Shown piece after piece: positions 19,591-45,531 of a DNA stretch of 56,208 bases. Numbering within the stretch: position 1 is the stretch's first letter; each line of letters begins with the position of its first letter. The stretch covers positions 1-56,208 of the forward strand of contig JAITFE010000138.1 in the NCBI GenBank assembly GCA_031281585.1, written 5' to 3'. The notes under the pieces are model-generated. The model saw nothing but the letters and a program-made list of their open reading frames with translations, did not search any database and was not told the DNA's origin. This DNA is from Bifidobacteriaceae bacterium. Its GTDB lineage: Bacteria > Actinomycetota > Actinomycetes > Actinomycetales > WQXJ01. The position numbers and the translations under genes are program-made.

Positions 19591-19642
19591 GCCTCACACC
19601 CGCACTCTCCACTCGGCTTTCCGGTGGGCCCGGTTCGTTGTC

Positions 19643-21568: not shown

Positions 21569-21663
21569 GTGTTGCTCTAGCTCCTTATCGCTGCTCGAGA
21601 TGGGGCGGCGGTTCACGAGCGTCCACGCGGACGTCGCGCGCCGCCGCCCCTCTACGCCTTCTT

Positions 21664-23034: not shown

Positions 23035-23228
23035 TGGCTATTCCTTTCAACTTGGTGGTGATCGCAGTCGCCTATTGAGTTCTAGAATGATCTAAGATGG
23101 TTCCCCTTCTGCCGCTTTGGCGATTCTTCCCAACGAGCCGATGCTCAATGCTGAGGTCAGTTGACCCGGCGCTTTCGACGACCCATCTAGCCGGTCGGCC
23201 CGTCGGCAGGACTGAGCAGTTGGCGGCT

Positions 23229-23999: not shown

Positions 24000-24208
24000 C
24001 TTGACGCCGCGGGCTTCCGAAGTCGAGCTTCGATGCGGCAAGAGTTCTGGCAAGAAGAACGTGGCAGCGAACGTCCTCTCTCGTTGCGGCAGATCAAATT
24101 CGGCGTTGCACGGGGCGAGACTCCCCAGTTCGCACTCCGAGTGAGCCGTCGTGCCGCGCCGACAGGATCGTCACGTGTCACCGTTGCCACCTCAATCTGT
24201 CTACACTC

Positions 24209-24223
24209 CGCACGTTTGTGCGC
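24209..24223. promoter_or_regulatory. Candidate operator, CGCAC-GTTT-GTGCG palindrome
   Basis: CGCAC and GTGCG enclose GTTT at 24,209-24,222, in the space between the hydrolase and the crotonase gene. It contains TTTGTGCGC (24,215-24,223), which recurs at 27,477-27,485 (reverse) and 31,469-31,477. A small CCCCCA/TGGGGG hairpin (24,263-24,278) lies further downstream. Confidence 0.45.
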
Positions 24224-24329
24224 TCCACGGACACGCTAAGCTCGACCGGGCCTTTTGTCAAGCCCCCATTCTTGGGGGATGAGCCCTCGTTGACGCCAAA
24301 TGGCCGCTCGACTCAACGCAGCCGGGGCA

Positions 24330-24358
24330 TTGACTCGCATCGACGCCAGCTATAGACT
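24330..24358 (+). promoter_or_regulatory. Promoter of the crotonase/acyl-CoA synthetase genes
   Basis: TTGACT (24,330-24,335), a 17-base spacer and TAGACT (24,353-24,358) match the sigma-70-type consensus well. They lie 78 bases before the GTG start at 24,436. Confidence 0.6.
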
Positions 24359-24435
24359 CTGTGCGTATGGTGGCTGCTTGTGCGGTCAACGAACAACGAT
24401 GTTTCCCAAATTCCTAGGAAGGAAGCGATTGTCAG

Positions 24436-25269
24436 GTGGCTGAGTACCGGTCGGACTACAACCCGTCAATGGAGCCGAAAGATCTCAAGTATGTGATCTA
24501 CGAGAAGAGGGACCATGTGGCCCACGTCACACTGAATCGACCCGAAGTCCGCAACGCCTTGCATACTTGGGCCTACCAGGAGTTGCACAAGTGCTGGACC
24601 GACATCCAACTCGATCCCGACGTCTACTGCGGGATCGTCACGGGCAGCGGCCAGGCGTTCTGCGCAGGACGGGACGTCAAATTCTTGGCGGAATACCAGG
24701 CCAAGGGCCTACGGACTCCCCACGAAGACCCGACTAGCCCGCATTACAGCTGGGGTGGGGGCGGCCAGCCACAGGACTCTATCTTGCAGAAGCCTCTGAT
24801 CGCCGCCATCAATGGTTTCGCTGTCGGCGTCGGCATTTCCATTGCGCTCCAGTGCCAGTTGCGCGTGATGGCAGAGGATGCATGGCTCGGCGACCAGCAC
24901 ACTGCCATTGGCCGACTGGGCATGCCCCATGAGATCTACTGTGAGCTTCCTCGCACCGCTGCGGCGTACCTCACGCTTTGCAACGGCCGTCTGACCGCAG
25001 AGGAATGCTACCGGCAAGCCATAGTCAACGGGGTAGTTCCGCGAGAAGAGCTCATAGCTGCCGCTGAGGGCCTGGCTCAGATGGTCTGCCGGAACTCACC
25101 TCTCGCTGTCCAGGGTGTGGTGAAGGTCTACAACATGGTGAAATCCTTCACTCCTGTCATGACGGAATACGTGTCAGAGATGGACCGCCAAATCGGCGAG
25201 TCGGACGACATGAAGGAAGCCGCGGCTGCGTTTGTCGAGAAGCGCAAACCTGTATGGAAGATGCGATAA
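24436..25269 (+). CDS. Enoyl-CoA hydratase/isomerase (crotonase) family protein, non-canonical active site
   Basis: A 277-residue crotonase-fold protein with a GTG start preceded by AAGGAAG. The CoA-binding and oxyanion motifs are LNRPEVRNALHTWAY, FCAGRDVKFLAEY and AAINGFAVGVGISIALQCQLRVMAED. Where hydratases carry the catalytic Glu in a PE motif, this protein has LGDQHTAIGRLGMPHE, so ordinary hydration is unlikely. Isomerisation, lyase or thioester hydrolysis fits better. Its end lies 14 bases before the synthetase start, so they are one operon. With a CoA ligase next door it resembles FerA-FerB hydroxycinnamate modules, but this is only an analogy. Confidence 0.88.
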   Translation: MAEYRSDYNPSMEPKDLKYVIYEKRDHVAHVTLNRPEVRNALHTWAYQELHKCWTDIQLDPDVYCGIVTGSGQAFCAGRDVKFLAEYQAKGLRTPHEDPTSPHYSWGGGGQPQDSILQKPLIAAINGFAVGVGISIALQCQLRVMAEDAWLGDQHTAIGRLGMPHEIYCELPRTAAAYLTLCNGRLTAEECYRQAIVNGVVPREELIAAAEGLAQMVCRNSPLAVQGVVKVYNMVKSFTPVMTEYVSEMDRQIGESDDMKEAAAAFVEKRKPVWKMR

Positions 25270-25283
25270 GGCGGGAATGTCTC

Positions 25284-27407
25284 ATGGCGACAGGTGCCGG
25301 CCTGAGCGACGTTAGCGGATTTCTGAACCCGGCTTCGATTGCCGTTGTGGGGGCCTCGGACAGAGAGGCCTCACTCGGCGGGGCCTCGGTGCGGTTCCTG
25401 CGTAAGTTCGGCTACCCCGGGGATGTCTGGCCCGTCCATCCGAGCGCGAAAGAAGTCGCCGGGTTCCCAGCGTACCCCGACTTGCCTTCCCTGCCCGGCG
25501 TGCCGGACCTGGTCGTCTTTGCCATTGCCGCAGGCCGCATTCCTGCGGCGGTGCGCGCCTATGGTGCCGCCGGAGCAAGGTCGGCAGTCATCTGGGCCGG
25601 CGGCTTCGCCGAAGGCGGTGCCGACGGCAAAGCGCTACAAGAAGATCTCGCGGCGGCCTGCGCCGAAACCGGGATGAGCGTGTTGGGGCCAAATTGTATC
25701 GGCATCATCTCCACCGCGCAGCCCATGATCGCCAGCTTCGGATCATTCATGCGCGAAGTCGATACGCTTCCCGCCGGGCACATTTCGGTCATGGGGCAGT
25801 CGGGCGGGCTTGTAACCATGGCCATCGCTCACGCGCGAGCTGCCGGTTTTGGCTTCCGGTATGCCATCAGCACAGGCAACGAGGCCGTGCTCACAACCGC
25901 AGACTTCATCGGTGCCTGCGCCCAGGATCCCGAGACGCGGGTGATTGCGGCCTATATGGAAGGCGTCAAGGACGGTCCCCGGCTGTTGAGCGCCCTCGAC
26001 ATAGCCCGCCAGGCCGGCAAGCCTGTGGTCGTACTGAGAGGCGGGAGTTCCAAAGCAGCCGCGATGGCGGCAGCCGCGCACACTGGCGCGCTCGCTGGGG
26101 AGTCAAGGGTATGGCACGCCGTATTTCAGGAGTACAGCGTTGTCGAGGTCTACTCGCTCGAAGAACTAATAGACGTGGTAACGCAAATCGCCTCGATGCC
26201 GGTTCCCATGCGCCCAGCGAGTAACGGCGTAGCCCTCGTCACGTTTGGCGGGGGCGGCGGCGTGCTAGCAGCCGATCAGTGCGAGAGAAGGGGCTTAGCC
26301 ACGCCTCGGCTCAACACCGAGTCCAGATCGAAACTTATTCCACTGGTGCCATCCATCGCTTCGGTCCAGAATCCCATCGACCTCACCCCGCAGGTATATG
26401 CGGACCCGCAATGGCTAGCCAAATTGCCCACCGCTCTGGACACAATCGCCGCAGATCCAGCAATCGACTCAGTCCTCCTCCAGTACGGGCCGATGGCCGC
26501 TGGGGCCGAAGCCATCGCACGGATGGCCAAGGAGTTCATGGAGCGTTCGCCGATTCCTGTCATGCTGGGATGGCCGTTGGCACCCAAGGCCGCCGCCGCG
26601 TGGCTGGCCGAGCGCAACGTAAACGTTTTCGTTGAGTATGACCGCGCCCTCCGCGTCATCTCTGATCTTTTTGCCTCAACGACCGGAAGCGGCTTTGGAC
26701 CGCCACCCCCTCCTTCGCAAATCGACTGGGAAGCTCTGGTGCCATGCCCGGTTCCCGGAACGGTTCTGGCCGAACACGAGGCCTACGACGTGCTGCGCGC
26801 GGCCGGGCTGCCAGTGGCCCCAGGTCGCTTGGTCGCCCAAGCCACCGACTTGCAAGATGTCGGCGAGCAGGTCGGCTGGCCGGTGGCTATCAAGGGCATG
26901 AGCAAGAAGTTCACGCACAAGTTCGCAATGGGTTTGGTCGCCTTGGGTATTGGCTCACCAGCCGAAGCCGCTGAAGCCGGAGCCATGATCGAAGCCCGTG
27001 GCCAAGAGTTGGGCGCCGACCTCGAAGGGCTGTTTGTTCAGCACATGGTCGACGGTGGTCAGGAGGTCCTCGTTTCCGCACTCCGCGACCCGAACTTTGG
27101 CGTCATAGTGTCCTGCGGAGCGGGAGGCGTGCTTACCGAGGTGATTGACGACATTGTGCTGCGCCGAGCCCCGTTTGGACCGGACGTGGCCGGGCACATG
27201 CTGAGCCAACTGCGCGTCGTCCGGCGAGCTTTGAACAGGGGATTGGTCGGGCCCTCTCTCGAGCCGATGATCGGCTTCCTGGTCGAATTCTCACGCGTGG
27301 CTGCTAGCGCGCCGTGGAAGTCGTTCGTCATTGAGGCGAACCCCGTCAAGTGGAGGTCGGACGGGGTCTGCGCAGTGGACGCTCTGATCATAATTGAAAA
27401 GCCATGA
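25284..27407 (+). CDS. ADP-forming acyl-CoA synthetase (fused alpha-beta)
   Basis: I use the ATG at 25,284, after AAGGCGGG, giving 707 residues. The alpha part (1 to about 450) has the CoA-binding Rossmann domain (FLNPASIAVVGASD), SVLGPNCIGI, and the phosphohistidine site AAHTGALAG. The beta part (about 480-707) is an ATP-grasp domain (YDVLRAAGLPVAPGR; PVAIKGMSKKFTHK; FGVIVSCGAGG). This family makes acyl-CoA from acid, CoA and ATP, releasing ADP and phosphate. Aromatic members such as FerA are known besides acetate enzymes. Lying between two crotonase genes, it probably activates an unsaturated or aromatic acid imported by region B. Confidence 0.92.
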   Translation: MATGAGLSDVSGFLNPASIAVVGASDREASLGGASVRFLRKFGYPGDVWPVHPSAKEVAGFPAYPDLPSLPGVPDLVVFAIAAGRIPAAVRAYGAAGARSAVIWAGGFAEGGADGKALQEDLAAACAETGMSVLGPNCIGIISTAQPMIASFGSFMREVDTLPAGHISVMGQSGGLVTMAIAHARAAGFGFRYAISTGNEAVLTTADFIGACAQDPETRVIAAYMEGVKDGPRLLSALDIARQAGKPVVVLRGGSSKAAAMAAAAHTGALAGESRVWHAVFQEYSVVEVYSLEELIDVVTQIASMPVPMRPASNGVALVTFGGGGGVLAADQCERRGLATPRLNTESRSKLIPLVPSIASVQNPIDLTPQVYADPQWLAKLPTALDTIAADPAIDSVLLQYGPMAAGAEAIARMAKEFMERSPIPVMLGWPLAPKAAAAWLAERNVNVFVEYDRALRVISDLFASTTGSGFGPPPPPSQIDWEALVPCPVPGTVLAEHEAYDVLRAAGLPVAPGRLVAQATDLQDVGEQVGWPVAIKGMSKKFTHKFAMGLVALGIGSPAEAAEAGAMIEARGQELGADLEGLFVQHMVDGGQEVLVSALRDPNFGVIVSCGAGGVLTEVIDDIVLRRAPFGPDVAGHMLSQLRVVRRALNRGLVGPSLEPMIGFLVEFSRVAASAPWKSFVIEANPVKWRSDGVCAVDALIIIEKP

Positions 27408-27476
27408 GTTGGGCTGACCTGCGGCGGGTCGGCGACAGCGCGGCTTGGACTACCAGGTAACTCCGGCTGCTTGTAA

Positions 27477-27486
27477 GCGCACAAAG
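27477..27486. promoter_or_regulatory. Candidate operator, GCGCACAAAG
   Basis: GCGCACAAAG (27,477-27,486) lies 31 bases before the second crotonase start. Its complement, CTTTGTGCGC, is found unchanged in the ribose-type importer promoter at 31,468-31,477. The surrounding CTTGT-6-ACAAAG is partly palindromic. Confidence 0.4.
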
Positions 27487-27516
27487 CATCTTGGCAGGTA
27501 AGAAAAGGAGAAACTA

Positions 27517-28278
27517 GTGGAATGCGTAGAACTTGACATACCCGTACCGCATGTAGCCGTGGTGATGCTCAACCGGCCACCGGTGAACGCGCTTAATCAA
27601 CAGGCCCGCCACGAACTGATCGCTGTGATGGACGAGCTACAGAGCCGGGACGACGTACGGTGCCTTGTGCTGACGGGGAAGGGAAGAATCTTTTGCGCGG
27701 GGGCTGACATCAAAGAGAAGGCGGATCTAAACCAAGGAGACCATTCCCAAGCGGCCGCGAACAGGCTCACTCGCGACGTATTCCTCTCGGTGCTCGATTC
27801 CTCAAAGCCGGTCATCGGTGCCATCAATGGGCACGCCCTTGGGGCCGGGATGGTGCTGGCGAGTTGCTGCGATTTTCTGCTGGCAGCGGACACAGCTAAG
27901 TTTGCGATGCCAGAAATCGACGTTGGCCAAGGGGGAGGCGCCAGCTACTTGCAGCGGGTCCTCCCACTAACCCTGATGCGCAGAATGATGCTGACCGGCA
28001 TGAGGGTGCCCGCCACGGAACTCTACCGGCGGGGCGTCATCGAAGAGTGCTTGTCGGCTGACGAACTGGTGGGTTCCGCTGTCGAGGTGGCTGCGGCGAT
28101 CGCCGCCAAATCGCCGCTGGCAGTCCGCACCATCCGGGAATCCTTCGTGTCGGTTGAGCACCTCCCCATGGCGGAGGCCTTCAAGATCGAACAACGCTAC
28201 ACATCCATGCTGTCTGCCTCCCCGGACGCCGACGAGGCCCGCCGAGCGTTCTTTGAGAAGCGCAGGCCCGTATTCTGA
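27517..28278 (+). CDS. Enoyl-CoA hydratase family protein
   Basis: A 253-residue crotonase with GTG start behind AAAAGGAG. It has LNRPPVNALNQQARHEL, FCAGADIKEK, and GAINGHALGAGMVLASCCDFLLAAD. The second catalytic Glu site reads FAMPEIDVGQGGGASYLQRVLP, the canonical hydratase type, in contrast to the crotonase at 24,436. Hydration of a 2-enoyl-CoA is the likely reaction. It follows the synthetase gene by 109 bases containing an operator candidate, so it may have its own promoter or be read through. Confidence 0.9.
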   Translation: MECVELDIPVPHVAVVMLNRPPVNALNQQARHELIAVMDELQSRDDVRCLVLTGKGRIFCAGADIKEKADLNQGDHSQAAANRLTRDVFLSVLDSSKPVIGAINGHALGAGMVLASCCDFLLAADTAKFAMPEIDVGQGGGASYLQRVLPLTLMRRMMLTGMRVPATELYRRGVIEECLSADELVGSAVEVAAAIAAKSPLAVRTIRESFVSVEHLPMAEAFKIEQRYTSMLSASPDADEARRAFFEKRRPVF

Positions 28279-28308
28279 AAGCTAGGGCCTTCGAATCGGC
28301 TCGGCGCG

Positions 28309-28346
28309 ACGCGCGGCCCCGTGGTCAAGAAACCCCGAGGCCGCGT
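28309..28346. terminator. Possible bidirectional terminator between convergent genes
   Basis: CGCGGCC (28,312-28,318) pairs with GGCCGCG (28,339-28,345) between the ends of the crotonase gene (28,278, plus) and the importer ATPase gene (28,361, minus). The loop contains a second small stem, GGT/ACC. There is no T-run. Confidence 0.35.
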
Positions 28347-28360
28347 GTTCGACCCGTGCA

Positions 28361-29143
28361 CTACTCGATTTCCGCCGGATCCTGGCCATCCATGTCGATC
28401 TCCTCGCCGCCGGCCATCAGTGTGATCACTTCCAATCGTGTGCGCTCGCCCGCGCGGAACTGGTCTAGAACCTTCCCCTGCTTCAGCACGGTGAACGAGT
28501 CGCCAACCGTCAAGGCATGGTGCGCATTGTGAGTGATGAAAATGATCGCGACTCCTCCGTCGCGCGCTTTTCGAATGAGCCGCAGTACGACAGCGGCCTC
28601 CTTGACCCCCAGGGCTGACGTGGGCTCATCGAGAATCAGGACCTTCGCGCCAAAATAGAGCGCGCGGCCTATTGCGAGGGCTTGGCGCTCGCCTCCTGAA
28701 AGCGTGCCCACCAACTGGCTGGCGTCAGCCACTCCACGAATCCCAATGTTCTTTATTTCGGTTCGCGCGACACTTGCTGCGGCGCGATGGTCGATCCACC
28801 TCAGCGGGCCAAAGCCTTTCATCGGTTCCCGCCCAATGAAGAAGTTCTGAGCGATGCTCATCAACGGGAAAGTGTCTATCTCCTGAAAGACAGTGGTAAT
28901 GCCCCGCGCCTGAGCGTCGCGAGGAGATCGGAAGTCCACCGCTTCTCCATCAACGCGGAGCTCGCCTCGGGTGACCGTGTGCACGCCTGACAGAATCTTG
29001 ATCAGCGTGGATTTTCCGGCTCCGTTGTCCCCCAGCAGACATGCCACTTGCCCGGGGGCAACCGAAAAATCGACATCCGACAGCACTGTGTTCAGGCCGA
29101 AAGTCTTGCACACTTTGACGAACTCGACCACGGGCTCAGCCAT
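28361..29143 (-). CDS. Ribose-type ABC importer ATPase (single domain)
   Basis: A 260-residue ATPase. Walker A is GDNGAGKST, the Q-loop FQEIDTF, the signature LSGGERQ, Walker B VLILDEP and the H-loop FITHN. Only one nucleotide-binding domain is present, as in the FrcA-type fructose importer; RbsA/XylG proteins have two. It therefore must dimerise. Its start overlaps the permease end by eight bases. An acidic tail (GGEEIDMDGQDPAEIE) follows the ATPase fold. Confidence 0.93.
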   Translation of the reverse strand: MAEPVVEFVKVCKTFGLNTVLSDVDFSVAPGQVACLLGDNGAGKSTLIKILSGVHTVTRGELRVDGEAVDFRSPRDAQARGITTVFQEIDTFPLMSIAQNFFIGREPMKGFGPLRWIDHRAAASVARTEIKNIGIRGVADASQLVGTLSGGERQALAIGRALYFGAKVLILDEPTSALGVKEAAVVLRLIRKARDGGVAIIFITHNAHHALTVGDSFTVLKQGKVLDQFRAGERTRLEVITLMAGGEEIDMDGQDPAEIE

Positions 29144-30188
29144 TCGCTACTCCTTCCTTCGCAACAGGCGGTCTTCGGGCGAATCGTGGTGGTGACAGCG
29201 CCATCTTGCGCAGCCTGTTGTTCGAGATCACGGCAACCAGCAGCAAAGCTCCCAGCAGGACTTGGGTGAGGTTGGCGTCCCAGCCTGCGTAGAAGAGACC
29301 CGCCTTGCTGATGCCATAAATCAGAATGCCGAAGAAGACTCCCGTGATGCTCCCGTATCCCCCTGTTATCAGGACCCCACCGATGATCACCACGATTGGC
29401 ACGTCGAAAACGTATCCCGATCCGGTGGTCGGGTCAGCAGTGCTGAACTTGACCGCCTGCATCATGCCCACAAACACGGCCGACATGCCCGCGCATGCGA
29501 ACAAGGTGATCTTCACCCGATTCGTCAGCACTCCTGAGCGTCTAGCGCGCTCGGTGTCCCCCCCGGTCGCAAGAATCCAGTTGCCGAAGCGAGAGCGCCG
29601 AAGGACCCACGCGCAGATCATTGTGATACAGATGAACCACACGATGGAGACGTCGAAGTTCGAATCTCCGATCTTCGACGCGAAGAGGCGAGGAAGCACT
29701 CCCTCGCGGTCAATGAGCACCGAAAGAGTCGTCGATTTGGTCAGGGCTTGGGCAATGGTTACGCCCAAGCCCAAGACGATAAGCATCATGCCGAGCGTGA
29801 CAATGAACGAGGGCATACCTGTTTTCGTCACCAACAAACCGTTGGCTAGACCAAAAGTCAGGCCAATGGCAAGGCCTGCCACCAAAGCCACGCCTAGAGG
29901 CAGCCCGAAGTATCCCGTCATCAAGCCGACAGTCACAGATCCGGCACCAACCACCGACCCGACAGACAGGTCCAATTCGCCGGAAATCATTAGCAGTGCC
30001 ACTGGCATGGCCATCATGCCAAGGTCGGCCATGCCGTTGACCCATGCGGCCGTGCCGTCCAGGCTGGTGAAACCGCTCCCAGACGACACGACCGCAAAGA
30101 ACAGGTACAGAACGACCGCGACCACCGCCGGTGCAAAGGCCTGGGACCGGACGAGCCGACCCGGCCATGCGCGCCATCGAGATTCCAT
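29136..30188 (-). CDS. Ribose-type ABC importer permease (RbsC family)
   Basis: A 350-residue permease with eight to ten hydrophobic segments. The family motif ISGELDLSVGSVVGAGSV lies around residue 85, and GLANGLLVTKTGMPSFIVTLGMMLI around 130. The EAA-like part is RARRSGVLTNRVKITLFACAGM. BPD_transp_2 permeases of this type import monosaccharides, polyols or sugar acids and lactones. The gene stands between the binding-protein gene (62-base gap) and the ATPase gene (8-base overlap). Confidence 0.93.
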   Translation of the reverse strand: MESRWRAWPGRLVRSQAFAPAVVAVVLYLFFAVVSSGSGFTSLDGTAAWVNGMADLGMMAMPVALLMISGELDLSVGSVVGAGSVTVGLMTGYFGLPLGVALVAGLAIGLTFGLANGLLVTKTGMPSFIVTLGMMLIVLGLGVTIAQALTKSTTLSVLIDREGVLPRLFASKIGDSNFDVSIVWFICITMICAWVLRRSRFGNWILATGGDTERARRSGVLTNRVKITLFACAGMSAVFVGMMQAVKFSTADPTTGSGYVFDVPIVVIIGGVLITGGYGSITGVFFGILIYGISKAGLFYAGWDANLTQVLLGALLLVAVISNNRLRKMALSPPRFARRPPVAKEGVANG

Positions 30189-30250
30189 TGTGTTGCACGC
30201 CCTCCTACGTACTTACGGCGCTCGCTGGGTTCCGTTCCGCCGTTGCTGGG

Positions 30251-31318
30251 TTAGTTGGCACCACGCACACCCGGATACTGGGCAACGATCTCGAGCGTCT
30301 GATCGAGGTTGTTCTTGTCGATGGCGATGGCGCCCGGTATGACTGCGCCCACAGGATGGATCCCGTAGCGGATGTACTGGTCCAGGATCATTATGGCTTG
30401 GAAGCCCCAGAGGTACTGCTGGGTGTCCACGATCCCGTCCAAAGTGCCGTCCCGGAGCAATTCGATGGCACCTTTGGATATGCCCAAAGTTGAGAGCTTG
30501 ATCTCTCCTGTCTTGCCGATGTTCTTGATGGCATCGGCGGCGTAGATCGCGATGGAGGAGTTCTGAGTCCACACGCCGTCGATGTCGGGGTGTGAACTCA
30601 GGTGGCCCTGGATCGTTTGGGTGGCACTCGCCGGGTTGTTCACGTCGGTAGCGGGGATGATGATCTGCTCAGATACTCCGCCGGATTCTTTCATTCCCTG
30701 TTCCGCGCCGTCGCAGCGCTGCTGCAGCCCCGGGTTGGAGGCAGCGTTGTTTACGCAGAGCAGATGCTTGACGCCGGTTGCTGCGGCAGCTTTGCCGGCG
30801 GCCAGGCCGGAACCGACCTTGTCCTCGCCAATGAAGGTCAAGACCCCTTCTGATTCCCAGGTGTCCATGCCGGAGCTGATGGTCACCACGGGAATGCCCT
30901 GCTCTACGGCCCGTTTGATTCCTGGGCCAAGCGAGTCAGCGTTGAAGTTCCAGACGATCAATCCGTCGGGGTTCTTGGCAATCGCTTGGTCAAGCAACGC
31001 CACGTAGTCTGGGATCACATTCGAATAATCTTTCGATGCCGAGTACTGGTAGTCGGTCATCCCCAGCAAGGCAGCAGCGTCGTCGGAACCGAGCTTCATA
31101 GGTTGGAAGAAGGCGTCCGATACGGGGCCGTTGACGGCGATGATGTAGGGGGCTTTGGAGTCCGTCGGGGCGCCGGTCGGTTGGGCCTTGGAGTCGGTCG
31201 GTTGGGTCTTGGAGTCGTCACCAGTTGAGCACCCAAAAGCGGCGCCAACTGCGGCGATACTGACAACTCCGACAAGGATTCTGCGCCACATCTTCGTGGT
31301 GCCGTTTGATTCGATCAT
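30251..31318 (-). CDS. Ribose-type ABC importer binding lipoprotein
   Basis: I start at ATG 31,318, which follows GAAGGAG; an upstream extension of 29 residues is unlikely. The 355-residue lipoprotein has a lipobox GAAFGC at about residues 25-30. A short linker built of repeats of T/ADSKxQPTxxPTDSKAP follows, coded by imperfect 30-base direct repeats at 31,155-31,215. The mature domain is Peripla_BP_4 type (AYIIAVNGPVSDAFFQPM-like start; LDQAIAKNPDGLIVWNFN; GIPVVTISSGMD; DGVWTQNSS). It binds a sugar-like solute for the permease downstream. Transcription probably starts at the promoter at 31,459-31,487. Confidence 0.92.
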   Translation of the reverse strand: MIESNGTTKMWRRILVGVVSIAAVGAAFGCSTGDDSKTQPTDSKAQPTGAPTDSKAPYIIAVNGPVSDAFFQPMKLGSDDAAALLGMTDYQYSASKDYSNVIPDYVALLDQAIAKNPDGLIVWNFNADSLGPGIKRAVEQGIPVVTISSGMDTWESEGVLTFIGEDKVGSGLAAGKAAAATGVKHLLCVNNAASNPGLQQRCDGAEQGMKESGGVSEQIIIPATDVNNPASATQTIQGHLSSHPDIDGVWTQNSSIAIYAADAIKNIGKTGEIKLSTLGISKGAIELLRDGTLDGIVDTQQYLWGFQAIMILDQYIRYGIHPVGAVIPGAIAIDKNNLDQTLEIVAQYPGVRGAN

Positions 31319-31458
31319 GCTCGCTCCTTCACGAGTCTGTTTCCTGCGCCTCGTTGTTGAGGCACCTGTCCAGCGTCTACTCCTTAGTAGGGCGTCTGTT
31401 CTCACGGGAGACGAGGCACTGCTGCGTCCAGCTAGACTGGCACGCGTGCCTTGTTCGT

Positions 31459-31487
31459 ATTACATCACTTTGTGCGCATTGTGTCAA
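31459..31487 (-). promoter_or_regulatory. Promoter with internal operator for the ribose-type importer
   Basis: On the minus strand TTGACA (31,482-31,487) and TGTAAT (31,459-31,464) are separated by 17 bases, nearly a consensus promoter. The spacer contains GCGCACAAAG (31,468-31,477) and part of the 11-mer CAATGCGCACA (31,471-31,481), which also occurs before the phosphotriesterase-family gene. A protein bound there would block RNA polymerase. The rest of the 343-base space (31,319-31,661) shows no gene. Confidence 0.65.
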
Positions 31488-31661
31488 TGGCCCAACTGCC
31501 AAGTCGCGCAATCCTGCGCTGACCCGTGCCACTCCACATCACGGACGGCACCGTGACGAGCCCCCGCGATCGAGCACACATCTGCGGCAGCGCGGAAGGA
31601 CCGGCGCGCAGTTCGCTGGTTCCACGTATCGCCACCGACACGGCTCCCCATGGATGACCCC

Positions 31662-32348
31662 CTATCGGCTAGGTCGCGGACGGCCATGCCTCAGCACGTC
31701 GTTGAGCAGTTTGGCTAGATCCTTCGGAGCGGTGAGAAAGGGCGAGTGGTCGGAGTCGATGCTCGCGGAGTACCGCATGTTGCGAGCCATCTGCTGCTGC
31801 ACATCCGGCTTCAGCGCATGGTCGCGCAGACACACAATGTAGGTCGACGGCAGCCGTTCCCACGGCCGGTTTTCAAGACCGATCGTTGTTCCCGGCGGAG
31901 ACGGCATCGGGCGCAGTCGCGCCCAAGCAGCCTGTGCTTGCGCTCGCGTGCATTCGCTGAAGAAGGTCTGCCAAGCGATATCAAAACTCGGCACATCACC
32001 GGTGCGAATCCGATCCGCCTTGGCGTAGGCCTGAAGCTGAGCGGCATTTGGGGCGGGGGCAGCTAGGTAGATCAAGTGCGCCAAGTCGGCTGTGCTGGCC
32101 ACGATCGACGTGAGCCGACCGCCGTAGCTGTGCCCGCACACCACTGTGTCGCCTCCAAGATCCTGTACGGCCTGGCGGACCACGGCTACGTCCGACGCAA
32201 CAGAGTCAAAGGGCAATTCAACGGCGACAACCTCGCGGCAGTCGGGGTCGATGAGGCCCATTACTTCGGACCAGCACCAAGCGCCGTGCCACGCACCATG
32301 CACCAGCAGCAAAGGGCTGAGGGGATCAACCCCGCTACGACCGGTCAT
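31662..32348 (-). CDS. Alpha/beta hydrolase, small esterase/HNL-like
   Basis: A 228-residue hydrolase of the same group as that at 23,229. It has LLLVHGAWHGAWCWSEV, the nucleophile elbow GHSYGG, and the C-terminal HSPFLTAPKDLAKLLNDVL supplying the catalytic His. The usual lid region is shortened. It is the third gene of an operon with the phosphotriesterase-family and PrpD-family genes, 28 bases behind the latter. An ester or lactone of the imported compound is a reasonable substrate, but no specific one can be named. Confidence 0.87.
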   Translation of the reverse strand: MTGRSGVDPLSPLLLVHGAWHGAWCWSEVMGLIDPDCREVVAVELPFDSVASDVAVVRQAVQDLGGDTVVCGHSYGGRLTSIVASTADLAHLIYLAAPAPNAAQLQAYAKADRIRTGDVPSFDIAWQTFFSECTRAQAQAAWARLRPMPSPPGTTIGLENRPWERLPSTYIVCLRDHALKPDVQQQMARNMRYSASIDSDHSPFLTAPKDLAKLLNDVLRHGRPRPSR

Positions 32349-32376
32349 CTTGAACCTCCCTCGTTAGCACGCACAG

Positions 32377-33729
32377 TTAGTGCGGTTCTGATGCCGACGC
32401 AAAGCGAGCCGAGTCAAGAACACGAGCGGAGTTGACGGCGAGTAGCTGCTGCGCGAGTTCCGATGCCGCTTCGGCGCCATGCACGGTAGCCGCACACTCA
32501 ATGAACTTCGCCACCAATGCGCCGACGTGATCGGCCGACAGTGGCGTGGTCATCGTCCCACCGCCGCTGGCGGTGGCGGCAAACACGGCGTCATGAGTCG
32601 CTACTTCCACTCGGGCGGCCCCTTTCGACTCACGAACCTCGACATGGTCCATGAACCGACGCACCTCAGCCCGACAGCGCGTGCCAGGCACAGCCCACAA
32701 GACTCGCGGAATCCGCAGAGCCAAGCACGCGAGTTGGTAGGGAAAATGCAGCAGGCAGTCCTGCTCGGTAAGCAGCCGATTCGCTTTCATGACGACGTGG
32801 TTGCCGGAATCACCGGCACTCACAACGACCTGCTCGATGCTATCCGCATCCAGATCGTTGTTGGCGACAAGATCGCTAAACGCCGCCTTGACCGCGATAG
32901 TTGGGAGATTGGTGGGCAGCAGCTTGTGCCGAACTAGGTGCCGCCATTCTCCGTCGGCCATCGGAAGCGGCTCCCACTCGCGGTTGGCGCCGATGTGCCA
33001 AAAATCTTGATCGGCACCGAAGACGGAGCTCGGTCCCGTGAACCCACACCGGGCCAGTTCAGCTGCGGCCAGCCCGACCTGGGCGATCTGACCGAAGAGC
33101 GTGTATTTCGCCATGGACACCGTCGTGCGAACGAAGTAGTCGGCCACCGTGTCGGTCGGCCGCATCCAGGTGGCGAGTGCTATCCCGTGACGGCACTCTT
33201 CAGCGGACAACTCCTCCGCACGGGCGATCGCCGCAACTACGGCTGGCGCGAAGAGAGGATGGCCGACATGGCGGATCTCGTGGGAGCCGAGCTCCGCCAC
33301 TAGTTCCCTGTACCGAGCCGTCAGTCGCGCTGAGACCTCGAGCCCTACGGCAATCGCTTCGAGCAGGTCCAGCCCGCTTCCGCCGGCGTGCTCGACTGCC
33401 ACGAGAGCAGCCGACACAACCGCTGGCACGTCGTGACCCGCCGAGGATACGGGGTCGAAGTCCATCGCGTTGATCAATTGCGCTCCGACGAAGGCGGCGG
33501 TGTCCCGGTCGGAGGATAGCTCGAGTCCAAGCGGCCGGGCACCGCCCGGGCGAGACGCCGCCCACCGCGCAAGAGCGAGGCCGGATGGAATCCTGGAGCT
33601 TGCGAGGGCACAGCCCACAGAGTCGAGCAGGACATGCCGCGCCTGGGTAAGGACGGCAGCGGGAATAGGTCCAGGCCGAACCGCGAAATCCGCGAGTTCG
33701 CCCAGCAGTGGGTCGCTCCGGGCGTTCAT
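32377..33729 (-). CDS. MmgE/PrpD family protein
   Basis: A 450-residue protein of the 2-methylcitrate dehydratase/cis-aconitate decarboxylase superfamily. It starts with an all-helical domain (ARHVLLDSVGCALASSRIPSGLALARW) and contains LINAMDFDPVSSAGHDVPAVV. In classical PrpD this site is a DFDD...HPS motif. The second Asp and the HP pair are changed here (FDP; GHD), so its reaction may not be methylcitrate dehydration. Another family member in this window (51,416) keeps DFDD and HPS. Its ATG overlaps the preceding gene's stop by four bases. Confidence 0.87.
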   Translation of the reverse strand: MNARSDPLLGELADFAVRPGPIPAAVLTQARHVLLDSVGCALASSRIPSGLALARWAASRPGGARPLGLELSSDRDTAAFVGAQLINAMDFDPVSSAGHDVPAVVSAALVAVEHAGGSGLDLLEAIAVGLEVSARLTARYRELVAELGSHEIRHVGHPLFAPAVVAAIARAEELSAEECRHGIALATWMRPTDTVADYFVRTTVSMAKYTLFGQIAQVGLAAAELARCGFTGPSSVFGADQDFWHIGANREWEPLPMADGEWRHLVRHKLLPTNLPTIAVKAAFSDLVANNDLDADSIEQVVVSAGDSGNHVVMKANRLLTEQDCLLHFPYQLACLALRIPRVLWAVPGTRCRAEVRRFMDHVEVRESKGAARVEVATHDAVFAATASGGGTMTTPLSADHVGALVAKFIECAATVHGAEAASELAQQLLAVNSARVLDSARFASASEPH

Positions 33730-34655
33730 TGCGGCGTGAAGGCTAGGAGGCGGCGGGGATTGTCAACAAAGATCGCCTGGATCTCGGCGTCCGACATGCC
33801 CACGTGCGCCAGGGCGCGAGCGAAGATGGTCCAGGGCTTGGCGTAGCCTGGTCCCCCCGAGGCCACCAAGTCGCCCACAAGAGAACCCTGATCACCAGAT
33901 ACGAAGATGCGATCCAGCCATCCTGCCTCGGCAAGGGCCGACACCTGGCGCGCCTGGCGGATATCGTCGGCTGGATTGTTTTCCCGCGACACGCGATCAA
34001 ATCCCACGGACGCTCCTCGCGCGACGATGCGCTCGTGGACCGAGATGTCGGGTAGTCCGCCGAGGTGGCCGATGACTACCCGCGCTGGATCAGCTCCCGC
34101 ATCCTCGAGCACCGCGAGTTGCTCTAGGGCGGCGAGTCCTTCGCATTCCGTGTGTGTGATGATCGACAGCCCGGACGCTCGCTGCACAGCTGCCACCGCT
34201 CGCAGAACTTTCCGCTCGTCGGCAGTGATGGTTCCGGACGTGCCTATCTCCCCCAGGATTCCCCATCGCTCTTCTGCTGCGGCCTTGAGCATTTCGGCGG
34301 TGAGTTCGCCTTCCGTCCGCTGCGCGACTCTCGGCGGATAGACCTGTTGCAGATAGAATCCGCCGCCGAGAACGAACGGCATGCCCGTCCTCTCGGCGAG
34401 CGTACGGACAACACCAACGTCCCGCCCCATGTCGTCGTGGCCGGCATCGACGATCAACGTCACTCCTGCATCCCGTGCCGACAGCATCTCCCCCTCCATC
34501 AGCCCAAGGTCGTCGAGGTGGAAACCGGGGGCGGGCGGATCACCCCGGAGGCGCACCAGGAAGTCCTGGCTGTAGTGGATGTGCTCATGGAACAGCACGA
34601 CCCCGAATTCCTCCGGGGGGCGGTCGCCTGCCGTTGTGCGGATGACGGATCCCAT
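33726..34655 (-). CDS. Phosphotriesterase-family amidohydrolase (probable lactonase)
   Basis: The start is ATG 34,655, after AAGGGGG, giving 309 residues. A much longer frame upstream has no family resemblance. Metal ligands of the binuclear centre are HEHIH (His23, His25), ILGEIGTSG (a Glu where phosphotriesterase has the carboxylated Lys), IITHTECEG, VVIGHLGG and FVSGDQG. Members with Glu at the bridging position are known in the PTE-homology group, and many relatives are lactonases. It begins the operon PTE-PrpD-hydrolase. A lactone-opening step followed by dehydration is a plausible order, but is inference. Confidence 0.87.
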   Translation of the reverse strand: MGSVIRTTAGDRPPEEFGVVLFHEHIHYSQDFLVRLRGDPPAPGFHLDDLGLMEGEMLSARDAGVTLIVDAGHDDMGRDVGVVRTLAERTGMPFVLGGGFYLQQVYPPRVAQRTEGELTAEMLKAAAEERWGILGEIGTSGTITADERKVLRAVAAVQRASGLSIITHTECEGLAALEQLAVLEDAGADPARVVIGHLGGLPDISVHERIVARGASVGFDRVSRENNPADDIRQARQVSALAEAGWLDRIFVSGDQGSLVGDLVASGGPGYAKPWTIFARALAHVGMSDAEIQAIFVDNPRRLLAFTPQ

Positions 34656-34692
34656 CGATTCAACCCCCTTGGGTGTCCGAATAGCGACTGAA

Positions 34693-34703
34693 TGTGCGCA
34701 TTG
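34693..34703. promoter_or_regulatory. Candidate operator, TGTGCGCATTG
   Basis: The 11-mer TGTGCGCATTG (34,693-34,703) is identical to 31,471-31,481 in the importer promoter. It lies 38 bases before the start of the phosphotriesterase-family gene. No good -35/-10 pair is visible around it. Confidence 0.45.
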
Positions 34704-34836
34704 CGTGCCCAGCCTAGCATGTAGGTACTCCGGGGCATAGAGCCCGGCTCTCCCGTGAGGCCCGCTGGCCCGCGCAGAATCCCTCCTTGCCCGGTTCGAA
34801 CTTGCCCGGCCGACGAACCAGCCCGAGTCCCGCTTC

Positions 34837-35640
34837 TCACAGCATGAGCGGAGGTAGGGACGTGAGCGTCTGCTCTGTGGGAATGGTCGGGTTGTATTCA
34901 AGGGCGACATAGCCGTCGTACCCCCTTGCGCGGAGCCGAGCGAGCAGTTGCGAAAGCGGCAGTTCCCCCGTCCCGGGTTGGCCGCGCCCAGGCCAGTCGG
35001 CGATTTGAACGTGGGCCACACGGTGGCCGTAGCGGTCCACGACACGTCCGAGATCGTCGCCGTTGTTGGCGAGGTGATAGAGGTCGCACAGGAATCCCAC
35101 GTTGTCGATCCCCGCCTCCTCCAGCTTGCCGATGACCGCAAAGCAATCGTCGGCCAGTTTCAGGGGATAGGTCTCCGCGCCTGGGCCTGACACGGGCTCA
35201 ATGAGGGCCGTACCGTTGATCTGCCTGGCCTCGGCGGCCGCGTACCGGAGGCCAGCCAAGGCAACATCATCCGACTCTCTCGGGTCCTCTTCTGGCTGGC
35301 GATTGCCATACAGCGCGTTGAACGCCCGGCATCCGAGCTCTCGCCCGATAGCCAACGCAACGGGAACATTATCTCGAAACTCCCCGTGGCGGGAGACCGA
35401 GCTAAGGACGCCCCGGCCCGGGCCCGGCATGGTCCCGGCGTAGAAGTTCAGTCCGATGAGTTGAGCGCCCGAGGCCTTGATAGCTTCAATGAATTCCTGG
35501 ATCTGGTCGTCCGATGGAACCGGTACGTCCCACGGCCACCAATACTCCACATAATCGAATCCAGCCGCCTTCGCGGCTGCTGCCCGTTCGAACAGCGGAT
35601 ACTCGTTGAACAGCAGACTGCAGTTGACCGCGTAACGCAT
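34837..35640 (-). CDS. hyi: Hydroxypyruvate isomerase
   Basis: A 267-residue TIM-barrel protein that interconverts tartronate semialdehyde and hydroxypyruvate. It begins MRYAVNCSLLFNEYPLFERAA and contains the metal ligands Glu (ALIEPVSG), Asp/His (LCDLYHLAN), Gln (HVQIADWPGR) and Glu (YVALEYNP). The family also includes 2-oxo-tetronate isomerase (OtnI) and apionate-pathway decarboxylases. Here, directly 20 bases behind the glyoxylate carboligase gene, hydroxypyruvate isomerase is the best reading. It is the last gene of the region C operon. Confidence 0.88.
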   Translation of the reverse strand: MRYAVNCSLLFNEYPLFERAAAAKAAGFDYVEYWWPWDVPVPSDDQIQEFIEAIKASGAQLIGLNFYAGTMPGPGRGVLSSVSRHGEFRDNVPVALAIGRELGCRAFNALYGNRQPEEDPRESDDVALAGLRYAAAEARQINGTALIEPVSGPGAETYPLKLADDCFAVIGKLEEAGIDNVGFLCDLYHLANNGDDLGRVVDRYGHRVAHVQIADWPGRGQPGTGELPLSQLLARLRARGYDGYVALEYNPTIPTEQTLTSLPPLML

Positions 35641-35660
35641 GGTCTTTCCCCTTCCCTTTA

Positions 35661-37436
35661 CTATTTGGCTGCAATGGAGTTCGGAGCGTCGGCTATCGTT
35701 TCCGCAAGCGGTTCGAACTCAGTTACGTTGTCCAATGACGATCCCATCGCCAGGTTGGTCGCTTTTTCCACGATGCACTCGACAATAACTGGTAAGCGGA
35801 GTTCGTAAGCAAGGCGTTGAGCTTCTTGTAGGGTGGGCACCAACTGAGTTGGCTCAGTCACCCGGAACGCCTTGCAACCGAGGCCTTGGGCCACCGCAAC
35901 GTGGTCAACGCCGTATCCACCGGTGTCAGAATTCACGTTCTCGAAGCCCAGCCGCACCTGGTAGTCCATGTCGAACGCTCGCTGCGATTGACGGATGAGG
36001 CCAAGGTATGAATTATTCAAGATAACATGAACATACGGCAGCCGGTGTTGCGCACCGGTGGCCAGTTCTTCGATCAGAAACTGAAAGTCATAATCGCCCG
36101 AGATAGCCACCACCTTAGTGTCGGGGTCGGCCACCACCGCGCCAAGGGCGGCAGGCATGGTCCAACCCAACGGGCCGGCCTGGGCAGCGTCAATCCAATG
36201 CCGCGGTTCGTAGACCTTGAGCATCTGACCCGCGCCAATCTGCGACAGCCCGATCACAGTAACGAAACGGGTATGACGGTCAAAAGCTTCGTTGACCGCC
36301 TCGTATACACGCTGCGGTTTCAAGGGAACACTGTTGAAATGGGTCTTTCGTTGGAGGCCGATCGCACTCTTGCGCTCGCCGCATTCACGAACCCATCCCG
36401 ACCAGGCCCGTAGCTTGCCCGCATCCTGGCGTTCCTTGGTCAAATTCAACAAAACCTGGAGCGCACTTCCAGCGTCGGATACCACGCCGTAGTCGGGTGG
36501 AAAGATCCGTCCGATTTGGGTCGGTTCGATGTCAACGTGGACAAACCGCCGACCCTGTCGGTACACGTCCAACGCGCCCGTGTGACGGTTCGCCCATCGG
36601 TTGCCCACGCCAACAATCAGGTCGCTCGCCAGGAACGTCCGGTTGGCCCAGATCTGGGCAGTTTGGATGCCCACTAGCCCCTGGCTTAACTCGTGATCGT
36701 CTGGGATCGTACCCCAGCCCATCAGGGTTGAGACAACCGGAACGCCCAGCAACTCCGCTAATCGAACGAACTCGCGTTCGGACCCCGAGATTAGCACTCC
36801 GCCACCCGCCAGCAAGAGAGGCCGTTCAGCCGCCGCCAAAAGATCCAGCACATGCTCCGCTTGGAAACGAGTCATCGCAGGGTTGGCAACGGGCAACGGC
36901 TCATAGGAGTCGATGTCAAAATCCATCTCTGCCATCTGCACATCAAAAGGAAGGTCCAACAAGGCTGGGCCGCGCCGACCGGTCCGCATCACCTGGAACG
37001 CTTTTGCCAACACGCCTGGAACCTGCGCCGCCTCCATCACGGTGGCAGTCATTTTCGTCACCGGAGCGGCAATTTCGGTGTTCGGAGCGTATTGGAAGTC
37101 CTCTTTGCCCAGTACTGCCCTGGGGACCTGCCCCACGATACACAGAATCGGGATCGAGTCTGCCCACGCCGAATAGAGACCCGTGATCATGTCGGTTCCG
37201 CCAGGGCCGGAGGTGCCCAAAGCCACACCGATGTTGTGAGGCCCCGCCCGAGTGAACCCCTCTGCCATATGCGTGGCAGCTTCTACATGGCGCACCAAAA
37301 CGTGCTTGATTGCGCCACTGGACTTCAGCGCAGAGTACAACGGGTTGATCGCCGCCCCAGGCACGCCAAATGCATGGGTGACCCCTTCTTTCACCAGAAT
37401 CTGCACCAACGCATCGACTGCGCGCATCACCGCCAT
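35661..37436 (-). CDS. gcl: Glyoxylate carboligase
   Basis: The ATG at 37,436, behind GGGAGGAGG, gives 591 residues and the family N-terminus [14 protein letters not shown]. The enzyme joins two glyoxylate molecules, releasing CO2 and forming tartronate semialdehyde, with thiamine diphosphate. Val51 in [14 protein letters not shown] replaces the otherwise universal catalytic Glu, the hallmark of Gcl among thiamine enzymes. The ThDP-binding region [15 protein letters not shown]...NN lies near residue 440-475. Its presence shows that the pathway generates glyoxylate. It sits 20 bases behind the reductase gene. Confidence 0.95.
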
Positions 37437-37456
37437 CGCCGCCTCCTCCCGACAAC

Positions 37457-38338
37457 TCAATCGGCGCGGCCGGACAAACGCTCGACCACCCGCAGCAAAG
37501 CTGAATGATCCAGGCTTCCGTCTCCATTGGCACGGGCCGTGGCAATCAACTGCGCGACTACTGAACCGAGGGGAATCACCACGGCCGCCTCCCTGGCCGC
37601 CGCCGTCACGATTCCCATGTCCTTGTGATGCAGATCGATGCGAAAACCGGGCTCGAACTGCCGAGCCAGCATAGATCCGCCCTTCAGTTCCAACACGCGG
37701 GAACCGGCGAGGCCACCGCCGAGGACCTTCAAAGCTGCCCCAGTGTCCACGCCATAAGCCTCCAAGAACACGATCGCCTCGGCAACCAACCCATAAACGC
37801 CGCCGACAATAAGTTGGTTCGCAGCCTTCACCGTCTGACCGGAGCCAGACGGCCCCAAATGCACCACAGTCGATCCCATCGAATCCAACAACGCTCTCGC
37901 GGCCTCGAAGCCATCCCGCTCGCCACCGACCATGATCGCCAAGGAACCGTCAATGGCGCCCTTCTCGCCCCCCGATACCGGTGCGTCCAAGGCCCAGATG
38001 CCTTTCGCCCGGCAAGCCACTCCCACTTCGCGTGACACATCGGGACGTATGGTCGACATGTCCACATATACCAAGCCTGGTTCTGCGTTTTCTAGCAGAC
38101 CGCCGGGACCGAAAACAACGACCCGGACGTCAGGAGAGTCCGGCAGCATCGTGACGAAGAAATCAACATCGGTGCACGCCTCCCCCACTGAACCTGCTGC
38201 CGCTCCGCCGGCCCCCACCAGTTTCTCCACCCCAGCGGGGTTAATGTCAAAGCCCTTTACCTCATGACCGGCCTTCAGTACGTTCAGCATCATCGGAACA
38301 CCCATGACGCCCAAGCCGACAATACCAACCCGTGCCAC
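37457..38338 (-). CDS. glxR: Tartronate semialdehyde reductase
   Basis: The GTG at 38,338, behind GGAAGGAG, gives 293 residues, the usual length. The NADH-binding motif is [34 protein letters not shown], the catalytic Lys in [14 protein letters not shown], and [11 protein letters not shown] and LDHSALL are all conserved as in GlxR/GarR. It makes D-glycerate from tartronate semialdehyde. The related 3-hydroxyisobutyrate dehydrogenase is the alternative, of note because an MmsA-like gene is adjacent. The neighbouring gcl and hyi decide for GlxR. No glycerate kinase gene is in the window. Confidence 0.92.
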
Positions 38339-38532
38339 AACCCTCTCCTTCCAAGAACAACTGAATCCATTTCTGGTCTTGCTTATAACAGTCTCCGCTA
38401 ACGCAGGTTTCCGCCTTCGATGGGCAACCTCCAACCAAGTGCGGCAGGCTCATTCGGGAAGTCTCCAACGGGGAACGGGCGGCTCGTTCTGACTGCGGCA
38501 TCGACTCGGCGCCTGGGCCGTTGCCCCCGGCA

Positions 38533-40038
38533 TCACGCTCCGATTGACGAGGTAGCCTGGAAGTGGAAAGCGGCCGTGGCCGCAGTCGGTTGGGGCCAGC
38601 GTTGCGTGACAACCTTCGCTTGCGTGAAGAACCTCACCCCCTCGGGGCCGTAGATGTGGGATTCACCCGCGAACGAGTCTTGCCAACCACCAAACGAGTG
38701 GTAGGCGACGGGCACTGGAATTGGTACGTTGACACCGATCATCCCGACTGGCACCGACCTTGCGAAACGTCGAGCCGCTTCACCTGATGAAGTGAAGATT
38801 GCAGCGCCGTTCCCATAGCGGTTGCTCTTGATAATCCCGATCGCATCATCGAGTTCGCGGGCCCGTAAGACAACCAAGACCGGGCCAAAGACTTCCTCAT
38901 GGTAGACCCGCATTTCTGCCGTCACACGGTCAATGATCGTGGGCCCTGTGAAAAAGCCCTCAGGTCGATTGCTGGGACGGAAACCGCGCCCATCCAGAAC
39001 TACGCGTGCACCCGCTGCCCTAGCTTCGGCAATGGTCTGTTCGATGCGGTCGCGGTGCGCCTTCGAGATTACCGGCCCCATGTCAACATCCGAGGACATG
39101 CCGTCGCCGACCTTGATTTCCCGTGCCTTCGCGACAAGGCAATCGAGGAGACGGTCTGCGACTTCCTCGACCGCTACGACCACTGGCAAGGCCATGCAGC
39201 GTTCTCCGGCCGCACCGAAAGCCGCCGCGACGACGCTTGCCGCCGCGAAGTCGAGGTCCGCGTCAGCAAGGACGACCCCGTGGTTCTTAGCACCACACAT
39301 CGCCTGAACCCGCTTGCCGTGGGCCGTACCGCCCCGATGTACTTCCTTGCCTACCCTTGTAGAGCCGACGAACGAGACCGAAGCAACGTCTACATGATTG
39401 ACAAGAGCCGTCGCCGCCCGTCCCTCGCCCTGCACAACATTGAAAACGCCTTCGGGGAGACCGGCGGCGGTCCACAACTGGGCAATGAAGACCGATGCTG
39501 AAGGATCCAATTCGGATGGCTTCAAGACGAACGTGTTCCCGCATGCGATGGCGACCGGCGCCATCCACAATGGACACATGACCGGGAAATTGAACGGTGT
39601 AATGCCCGCACAGACGCCCAGAGGCTCCCGGAACGAGAAGACATCAATACCGGTGGCGGCTTGTGCGGTGAATTCCCCCTTGAGCAGTTCGGGGATTCCG
39701 CATGCGAACTCGACAACCTCGAGTCCGCGGCTTACCTCTCCCAATGCGTCGGACAAGATCTTGCCGTGTTCTCGGGTCACAATTTCGCCCAATTCGCCTG
39801 CGTGCGCCTTGAGCAGTTCGCGGAATGCGAAAAGCACATCCGTTCGGCGACCGAGTGACACTCGCGACCATGCCTCGAAAGCGCGGCGCGACGACGCCAC
39901 CGCAGTATCGACCGCTTTTTCGTCACCAAGTTCAACGACGCCGATCCGCTCACCCGTAGCCGGGTTACAAATCGGATAGGTTCCGTAACCACCGGCGCCT
40001 ATTTCGCCGTCGATGTAGTGCGAAACCCTGTAGACCAT
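38533..40038 (-). CDS. mmsA: CoA-acylating methylmalonate/malonate-semialdehyde dehydrogenase
   Basis: The ATG at 40,038, after GAGGAG, gives 501 residues; the open frame upstream overlaps the CoA-transferase gene. It has GITPFNFPVMCPLWMAPVA, SFVGSTRVG, CGAKNHGVVLADADLD, and the nucleophilic Cys in GAAGERCMALPVVV. Loss of the general-base Glu in the GAKNH segment is diagnostic of CoA-dependent MmsA/IolA. These enzymes turn malonate or methylmalonate semialdehyde into acetyl- or propionyl-CoA with decarboxylation. It follows the CaiB gene by 32 bases, so a semialdehyde is an expected product of the upstream steps. Confidence 0.93.
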   Translation of the reverse strand: MVYRVSHYIDGEIGAGGYGTYPICNPATGERIGVVELGDEKAVDTAVASSRRAFEAWSRVSLGRRTDVLFAFRELLKAHAGELGEIVTREHGKILSDALGEVSRGLEVVEFACGIPELLKGEFTAQAATGIDVFSFREPLGVCAGITPFNFPVMCPLWMAPVAIACGNTFVLKPSELDPSASVFIAQLWTAAGLPEGVFNVVQGEGRAATALVNHVDVASVSFVGSTRVGKEVHRGGTAHGKRVQAMCGAKNHGVVLADADLDFAAASVVAAAFGAAGERCMALPVVVAVEEVADRLLDCLVAKAREIKVGDGMSSDVDMGPVISKAHRDRIEQTIAEARAAGARVVLDGRGFRPSNRPEGFFTGPTIIDRVTAEMRVYHEEVFGPVLVVLRARELDDAIGIIKSNRYGNGAAIFTSSGEAARRFARSVPVGMIGVNVPIPVPVAYHSFGGWQDSFAGESHIYGPEGVRFFTQAKVVTQRWPQPTAATAAFHFQATSSIGA

Positions 40039-40070
40039 GGCACAACTCCTCATCTTTGGGGACCGATAAA

Positions 40071-43554: not shown

Positions 43555-43564
43555 GACGCTCCGT

Positions 43565-45387: not shown

Positions 45388-45442
45388 GAACTGGAATCCT
45401 CGCTAGCTTGCTAGTTATGACGTACGGGGCACTAACGAGTAC

Positions 45443-45473
45443 ATCATACGGGGTACCTGTAGCAGCCTGTCAA
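45443..45473 (-). promoter_or_regulatory. Promoter of the GntR gene and region C operon
   Basis: On the minus strand TTGACA (45,468-45,473) and TATGAT (45,443-45,448) lie 19 bases apart, slightly more than the optimum. Operator candidate 2 overlaps the -10 element. Confidence 0.5.
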
Positions 45474-45531
45474 TCAGATTCGCGAATGATGAGCGAAAGC
45501 CCAGGTCAGACGGTCAGTTGCCATCGAGGTA

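Follow-up and report, generated by a model that had tools for sequence, protein, structure and literature searches.

A 56,208-nucleotide stretch of DNA from a Bifidobacteriaceae bacterium (assembly GCA_031281585.1, contig JAITFE010000138.1; referred to here in its entirety as the window) contained three intact minus-strand open reading frames (ORFs) between positions 31662 and 34655. These ORFs were predicted to encode a PTE-family metal hydrolase (33726..34655; 309 amino acids), assigned from Pfam, alignments, AlphaFold, and Foldseek; a divergent MmgE/PrpD-family protein, here called PrpD1 (32377..33729; 450 amino acids), assigned from Pfam and alignments; and an alpha/beta hydrolase (ABH) of the hydroxynitrile lyase (HNL)/SABP2/pheophorbidase-like group (31662..32348; 228 amino acids), assigned from Pfam, comparison with Protein Data Bank (PDB) sequences, and motifs. 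The PTE and PrpD1 ORFs overlap by 4 nt, and PrpD1 and ABH are separated by 28 nt. An earlier note, made from the sequence alone, had described a three-gene block with altered residues, and both the compact same-strand arrangement and the residue changes that it named were present. The trio is read here, at somewhat less than even odds, as the part of an acquired catabolic island that hydrolyzes and processes an imported ester, lactone, or amide.

Predicted enzymes of the block

The PTE ORF matched Pfam PF02126 (E = 1.4e-47; 163 bits, with a gathering score of 22.4), and its metal ligands were all present (H23, H25, bridging E136, H168, H197, and D255). The bridging residue lies in the motif GEIGTSG and is Glu, as the earlier note had observed. 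Among 29 relatives of the protein from the order, 16 were of the Glu type and 13 were of the Lys type, and Glu occupied the position in 20/20 rows of a further alignment (A3), which was built from a search seeded with Glu-type PTE sequences. The AlphaFold model was confident (predicted local distance difference test [pLDDT] score, 91.1), and its Foldseek neighbors were E. coli Php (1bf6 and 4lef), 3k2g, and PTER (9efa and 9efb). Superposition on Php 1bf6 gave a root mean square deviation (rmsd) of 2.0 and a template modeling (TM) score of 0.90 by target length. Php, for which we know of no substrate, also carries the Glu bridge, and both Php and PTER share the fold and two-metal ligand set of the window PTE, with structural-alignment identities of 29% and 24%, respectively; the window protein lacks loops found in most of the A3 relatives. 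Mammalian PTER is a Glu-bridged amidase with metal residue E169 (PMC11374699 and PMC13311154), and the substrate-contacting residues of the mouse enzyme are R204, R233, H300, and Y65. Because Glu is common among the relatives and is also found in Php and PTER, the sequence comparisons identify it as a family trait that does not predict a lactonase, and the hint of lactonase activity that had been drawn from this residue was not upheld. No lactonase-family cutoff was reached by the PTE in the NCBIfam profile search, and a second PTE gene was not found elsewhere in the genome.

PrpD1 matched Pfam MmgE_PrpD_N (E = 6.3e-30; 104.6 bits, with a gathering score of 32.1) and had no match at an E value of 0.001 in NCBIfam, including the 2-methylcitrate dehydratase PrpD equivalog. 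Its motif reads MDFDP...GHDV where relatives have DFDD...HPS, and the altered residues are N87 (His in 23/29 aligned relatives), P93, D100 (Pro in 26/29), and V101 (Ser in 24/29). The site had been described as partly lost; altered is the closer word, as the first Asp, both His residues, and both Lys residues are retained (D90, H99, H150, K208, and K269). The active-site set of IDS epimerase (PMC12290011) consists of H85, D88, H99, H150, K198, and K266, for which the PrpD1 equivalents are N87, D90, H99, H150, K208, and K269 (5/6, with H85 replaced by N87). At the second-base Tyr of the epimerase, five residues ahead of the second His, PrpD1 has A145, and a canonical family member in the window (PrpD2) has Tyr (alignment inspected by eye); PrpD1 therefore lacks the second-base Tyr by which an IDS epimerase or methylsuccinate isomerase would be recognized. 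One-base chemistry is favored because this Tyr is absent, and PrpD1 is probably active and of the one-base (dehydratase or decarboxylase) type, so that the dehydration or decarboxylation previously envisaged for it remains plausible at the level of sequence. One-base chemistry has been proposed for cis-aconitate decarboxylase (PMC7347537), and the characterized MmgE/PrpD members all act on 1,4-dicarboxylates (PMC12290011). Four PrpD-family genes besides PrpD1, including PrpD2, are present in the genome. A viral contig scan seeded with PrpD2 to deepen the PrpD alignment returned no matches. Another contig of this genome, C133, encodes a PrpD-family protein and a CitE-type lyase approximately 6 kb apart (3064-3774 and 9925-10578).

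ABH matched Pfam Abhydrolase_6 (E = 4.7e-23), and its nearest solved chains were the alpha/beta hydrolase 8hfw, a pheophorbidase, HNL variants, and SABP2, which agrees with its earlier description as an HNL/methylesterase-like hydrolase. Its motifs indicate a likely catalytic triad of S74, D176, and H201. HNLs are recognized by Thr11 and Lys236 (Hevea numbering). In a comparison by eye against this rule, ABH had HGAWHG and DHSPF where HNLs carry HT and DHK; HNL activity is therefore unlikely, and assignment as an HNL was rejected. A second hydrolase of the same HNL-like group is encoded at 23229-24053.

Conservation of the block and the neighbors of PTE genes

A search with PrpD1 of 396 genomes of the phylum gave matches in 69 (its own included), the best other match having approximately 38% identity over the N-terminal domain; a search with the PTE of 396 genomes of the order gave matches in 109 (its own included), the best other at 39%. 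A PrpD1 pattern scan of genome contigs, a method that detects close relatives only, produced 137 pattern matches and no relative, and a PTE scan of genome contigs produced 22 loci. Neighborhoods were compared by searching each locus with 19 window proteins. Among the 53 PTE loci, the order contributed 16 of the Glu type and 11 of the Lys type, a further 22 were named loci, and 4 came from plasmids; 51 were distinct, because the PTE DNA is identical within L062/L078 and within L064/L079, and 2/13 Lys-type loci (L056 and L058) were left out of this extended comparison. Flanks were short in some cases (approximately 1.5 kb for one set of loci and <9 kb for L077, L080, L090, L095, L097, and L098). 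Trio partners at an E value of ≤1e-4 were found at 0/53 PTE loci and 0/7 PrpD loci, and no examined locus held any two of the trio members together, so the conservation that the earlier note had made the test of its proposal did not appear. The plasmid records examined were 4/199 of those with PTE matches, 1/48 of those with PrpD matches, and 0/223 of those with ABH matches, and the DNA of the trio region had no match in the comparison with plasmids. A literature search limited to open-licence papers found none on a combination of PTE, PrpD, and alpha/beta hydrolase, in keeping with the earlier statement that no characterized pathway has this trio.

CUT2-type ATPase genes (called at ≥120 bits, a threshold chosen after seeing the data) were found near Glu-type PTE genes at 7/16 order, 9/22 named, and 2/4 plasmid loci and near Lys-type PTE genes at 1/11 order loci, which is suggestive of a link between Glu-type PTEs and CUT2 importers. 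Recurring actinobacterial and rhizobial PTE clusters were observed (L078, L084, L086, L088, L093, L094, L115, and L116); a CUT2 importer adjoins the PTE in most of them, and GATase1-like, PfkB, M20, or BtpA genes are present in those that were scanned or annotated. Clusters with the order binding protein-ATPase-permease-PTE-GATase1_like-PfkB, in some cases followed by BtpA or M20, resemble the window in placing the PTE beside a transporter but lack PrpD and ABH. According to their annotations, rhizobial and paracoccal plasmids carry the PTE with a GATase-like protein, PfkB or ribokinase, and BtpA; an Alicyclobacillus plasmid carries it with a sugar ABC transporter and other sugar-acid genes, and a Curtobacterium plasmid carries it with an MFS transporter. 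Salmonella STM3547-STM3550 is a PfkB-GATase-transporter-PTE locus whose substrate is reported as not known (PMC13432705); there, too, the PTE is next to a transporter, but one of the DMT type.

The surrounding gene run and the genome-specific segment

The trio lies inside a 15-gene minus-strand run extending from 45387 down to 28361. Its surroundings, comprising a CUT2 transporter, a Gcl-Hyi-GlxR module, and a genome-specific segment, had been overlooked in the earlier note. The run is headed by a GntR/FCD regulator (44710..45387), followed by an SCPx-type thiolase (43565..44713), its ChsH2/DUF35-type OB-fold partner (43144..43554), an enoyl-CoA hydratase-family protein (42347..43147), a tandem class III CoA-transferase of the CaiB type (40071..42350; a fusion of two CoA-transferase stretches in one ORF), and a CoA-acylating (methyl)malonate-semialdehyde dehydrogenase (38533..40038), with the thiolase, hydratase, and dehydrogenase assigned from profile matches. 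Next are the tartronate semialdehyde reductase GlxR (37457..38338; NCBIfam equivalog, 344.6 bits, above the cutoff), the glyoxylate carboligase Gcl (35661..37436; NCBIfam equivalog, 953.4 bits versus a cutoff of 791), and a Hyi-like hydroxypyruvate isomerase (34837..35640; NCBIfam, 237.5 bits, under the cutoff of 353.45). The trio follows, and the run ends with a CUT2-type periplasmic binding protein (30251..31318, with the start chosen at 31318), a CUT2 permease (29136..30188), and a CUT2 ATPase (28361..29143). Gaps of 181 nt and, with that start, 343 nt separate the trio from Hyi and from the binding protein, respectively. Scans for promoters (5 promoter-like sites versus 4.1 expected) and terminators (19 terminator-like sites versus 13.0 expected; standard deviation, 3.9) gave no convincing site. 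Gcl, Hyi, and GlxR genes are adjacent in the window and in three related genomes, as they are in the P. aeruginosa PA1498-PA1502 glyoxylate module, which is linked to allantoin (PMC12694930); no allantoin gene was recognized among the scanned window proteins. The genome has one glycerate kinase gene, on another contig.

This run belongs to a segment (11436..56208, open at the contig end, at least 44.7 kb) that is not collinear with genus mates and begins directly past a conserved Mrp-like gene. A core protein encoded at 8365-9657 was present in 10/10 genus genomes, its own included, at 83 to 93% identity in the nine others. DNA collinearity with the mates stops at 11435, 11422, 11433, and 11370 in the four informative loci; collinearity with L112, the fifth, runs to the very end of that contig and gives no information. 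Past the break, two of the three mates compared (L109 and L111) share further matches with each other, and the third (L110) does not. Gcl was found at an E value of ≤1e-100 in 0/9 genus mates and 1/8 other family genomes, several of the genomes used in that search being incomplete. Because collinearity stops and Gcl was not found in genus mates, the DNA that runs from 11436 to the end of the contig is peculiar to this genome at this site, and it is probably an acquired catabolic island; a chimeric contig may be an alternative account. The synteny break is stronger evidence for an island than base composition. G+C content is 68.9% in the left 12 kb and 61.2% in the remainder of the window, and low G+C content alone was not accepted as proof, since the genus mate G442 has stretches of 58 to 61%.

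No tRNA was found in the window. An ORF with a DUF4143 match lies near the break (11799-12386, minus strand). The island also encodes a PcaIJ-type CoA-transferase with a thiolase, DhaKL, three transporters, PrpD2, and the second HNL-like hydrolase. A PcaR-type IclR regulator, the DhaKL kinase, a PcaF-like thiolase, and the PcaIJ-type CoA-transferase are grouped at 12480-19590 (minus strand), and a 402-amino-acid protein encoded at 13615-14823 (minus strand) matched nothing in Pfam, NCBIfam, or the PDB sequences and may have a cupin- or sugar-isomerase-like fold, as hinted by eye only. PrpD2 adjoins a PGA_cap/CapA-type protein whose relatives include the lasso-peptide epimerase MslH (51416-54251, plus strand), and this pair follows an oligopeptide-type ABC transporter.

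Alternative explanations and significance

As a hydrolytic and processing block, the trio would act on a small sugar- or cyclitol-like solute taken up by the CUT2 importer. The two-metal PTE would hydrolyze an ester, lactone, or amide bond of the solute, ABH would cleave a further ester, and PrpD1, via H99 and two lysines, would use one-base enolate chemistry to dehydrate or decarboxylate a product bearing a 1,4-dicarboxylate-like unit. C2 and C3 fragments would leave as glyoxylate or hydroxypyruvate through Gcl, Hyi, and GlxR to glycerate and then to the glycerate kinase encoded elsewhere; the order of steps is tentative. Several observations weigh against this proposal. The trio was conserved nowhere examined, and its cofunction therefore rests on one genome. 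The gaps on either side of it may be compatible with separate transcripts, promoter and terminator signals not being clear. PrpD1 has Pro at position 93, where 29/29 aligned relatives have Asp, it lacks the C-terminal PrpD Pfam match (PF19305; E value of 0.001) that PrpD2 has, and an AlphaFold prediction of PrpD1 on a two-row alignment gave a pLDDT of 34.6 and was not used. The difference in CUT2 frequency between Glu-type and Lys-type loci is weak (P = 0.062 in the order sample and P = 0.053 for 16/40 versus 1/11; one-sided Fisher test), and the GATase1-like, PfkB, BtpA, or M20 genes with which annotated or Pfam-scanned PTEs travel were not seen among the families scanned in the window.

The three genes could instead be chance neighbors that serve different substrates and were gathered in a gene-collecting island, an account that is unlikely but retains appreciable weight: the absence of any trio pair from the other loci and the mixture of catabolic modules in the island both agree with it, but the 4-nt overlap and 28-nt gap suggest translational coupling, at least of PTE and PrpD1. 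The scheme of the earlier note, in which the PTE would act as a lactonase, PrpD1 would dehydrate or decarboxylate the ring-opened product, and ABH would cleave an ester, is less probable still. Lactonase activity has been reported for several characterized members of the PTE family (PMC3468530 and others), and the missing epimerase Tyr of PrpD1 would suit the scheme, but the Glu bridge confers no lactone preference and no lactonase cutoff was reached. The compact three-enzyme block of that scheme stands, but its lactonase pointer and its conservation are not supported, and HNL activity is unlikely. The idea that the PTE is a PTER-type N-acyl amidase, with PrpD1 and ABH processing the freed acid or its ester, appears improbable as well, and slightly more so; PTER is Glu bridged and a Foldseek neighbor, and PTE relatives can adjoin GATase1-like and M20 peptidase-family proteins, but Php is structurally nearer than PTER and the loops of the window PTE differ.

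The nearest functional analogue of the trio is the P. aeruginosa itaconate/methylsuccinate/2-hydroxyparaconate cluster PA0878-PA0886 (PMC9875883 and PMC12290011), which combines a lactonase with an MmgE/PrpD protein and a CoA-transferase, a grouping that also speaks for lactone opening. That lactonase, however, carries the annotation of a ring-cleaving dioxygenase and is not a PTE, and the PrpD protein is an isomerase with the Tyr that PrpD1 lacks. A soil pathway that acts on a branched 1,4-dicarboxylate (2-hydroxyparaconate/itatartarate or hydroxycitrate-lactone type) in the form of its lactone, ester, or amide would be new if true and is the most speculative of the possibilities. It would begin with CUT2 import, opening by the PTE, deesterification by ABH, and dehydration or decarboxylation by PrpD1; the CaiB/hydratase/thiolase block would then perform a CoA-dependent cleavage, and Hyi, Gcl, and GlxR would salvage the resulting hydroxypyruvate or glyoxylate. 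Itatartarate survives as a candidate only within such a pathway, as no CitE-type lyase was recognized among the scanned proteins of the window; other contigs of the genome hold two PF03328 genes that scored above the cutoff, one of which shares its contig with a PrpD-family gene.

The lactone interpretation is one of several. The trio, observed in a single genome, does not form a conserved system and matters little as one. The transporter offers the most useful lead, since its ligand should reveal the PTE substrate, and the link between Glu-type PTEs and CUT2 importers would offer a direct route to PTE substrates via the binding-protein ligand. If the substrate were a branched dicarboxylate derivative, P93 and N87 of PrpD1 would mark a new MmgE/PrpD substrate class. 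If the three enzymes act together, they would represent a previously undescribed catabolic route, and the MmgE/PrpD family would gain a substrate class.

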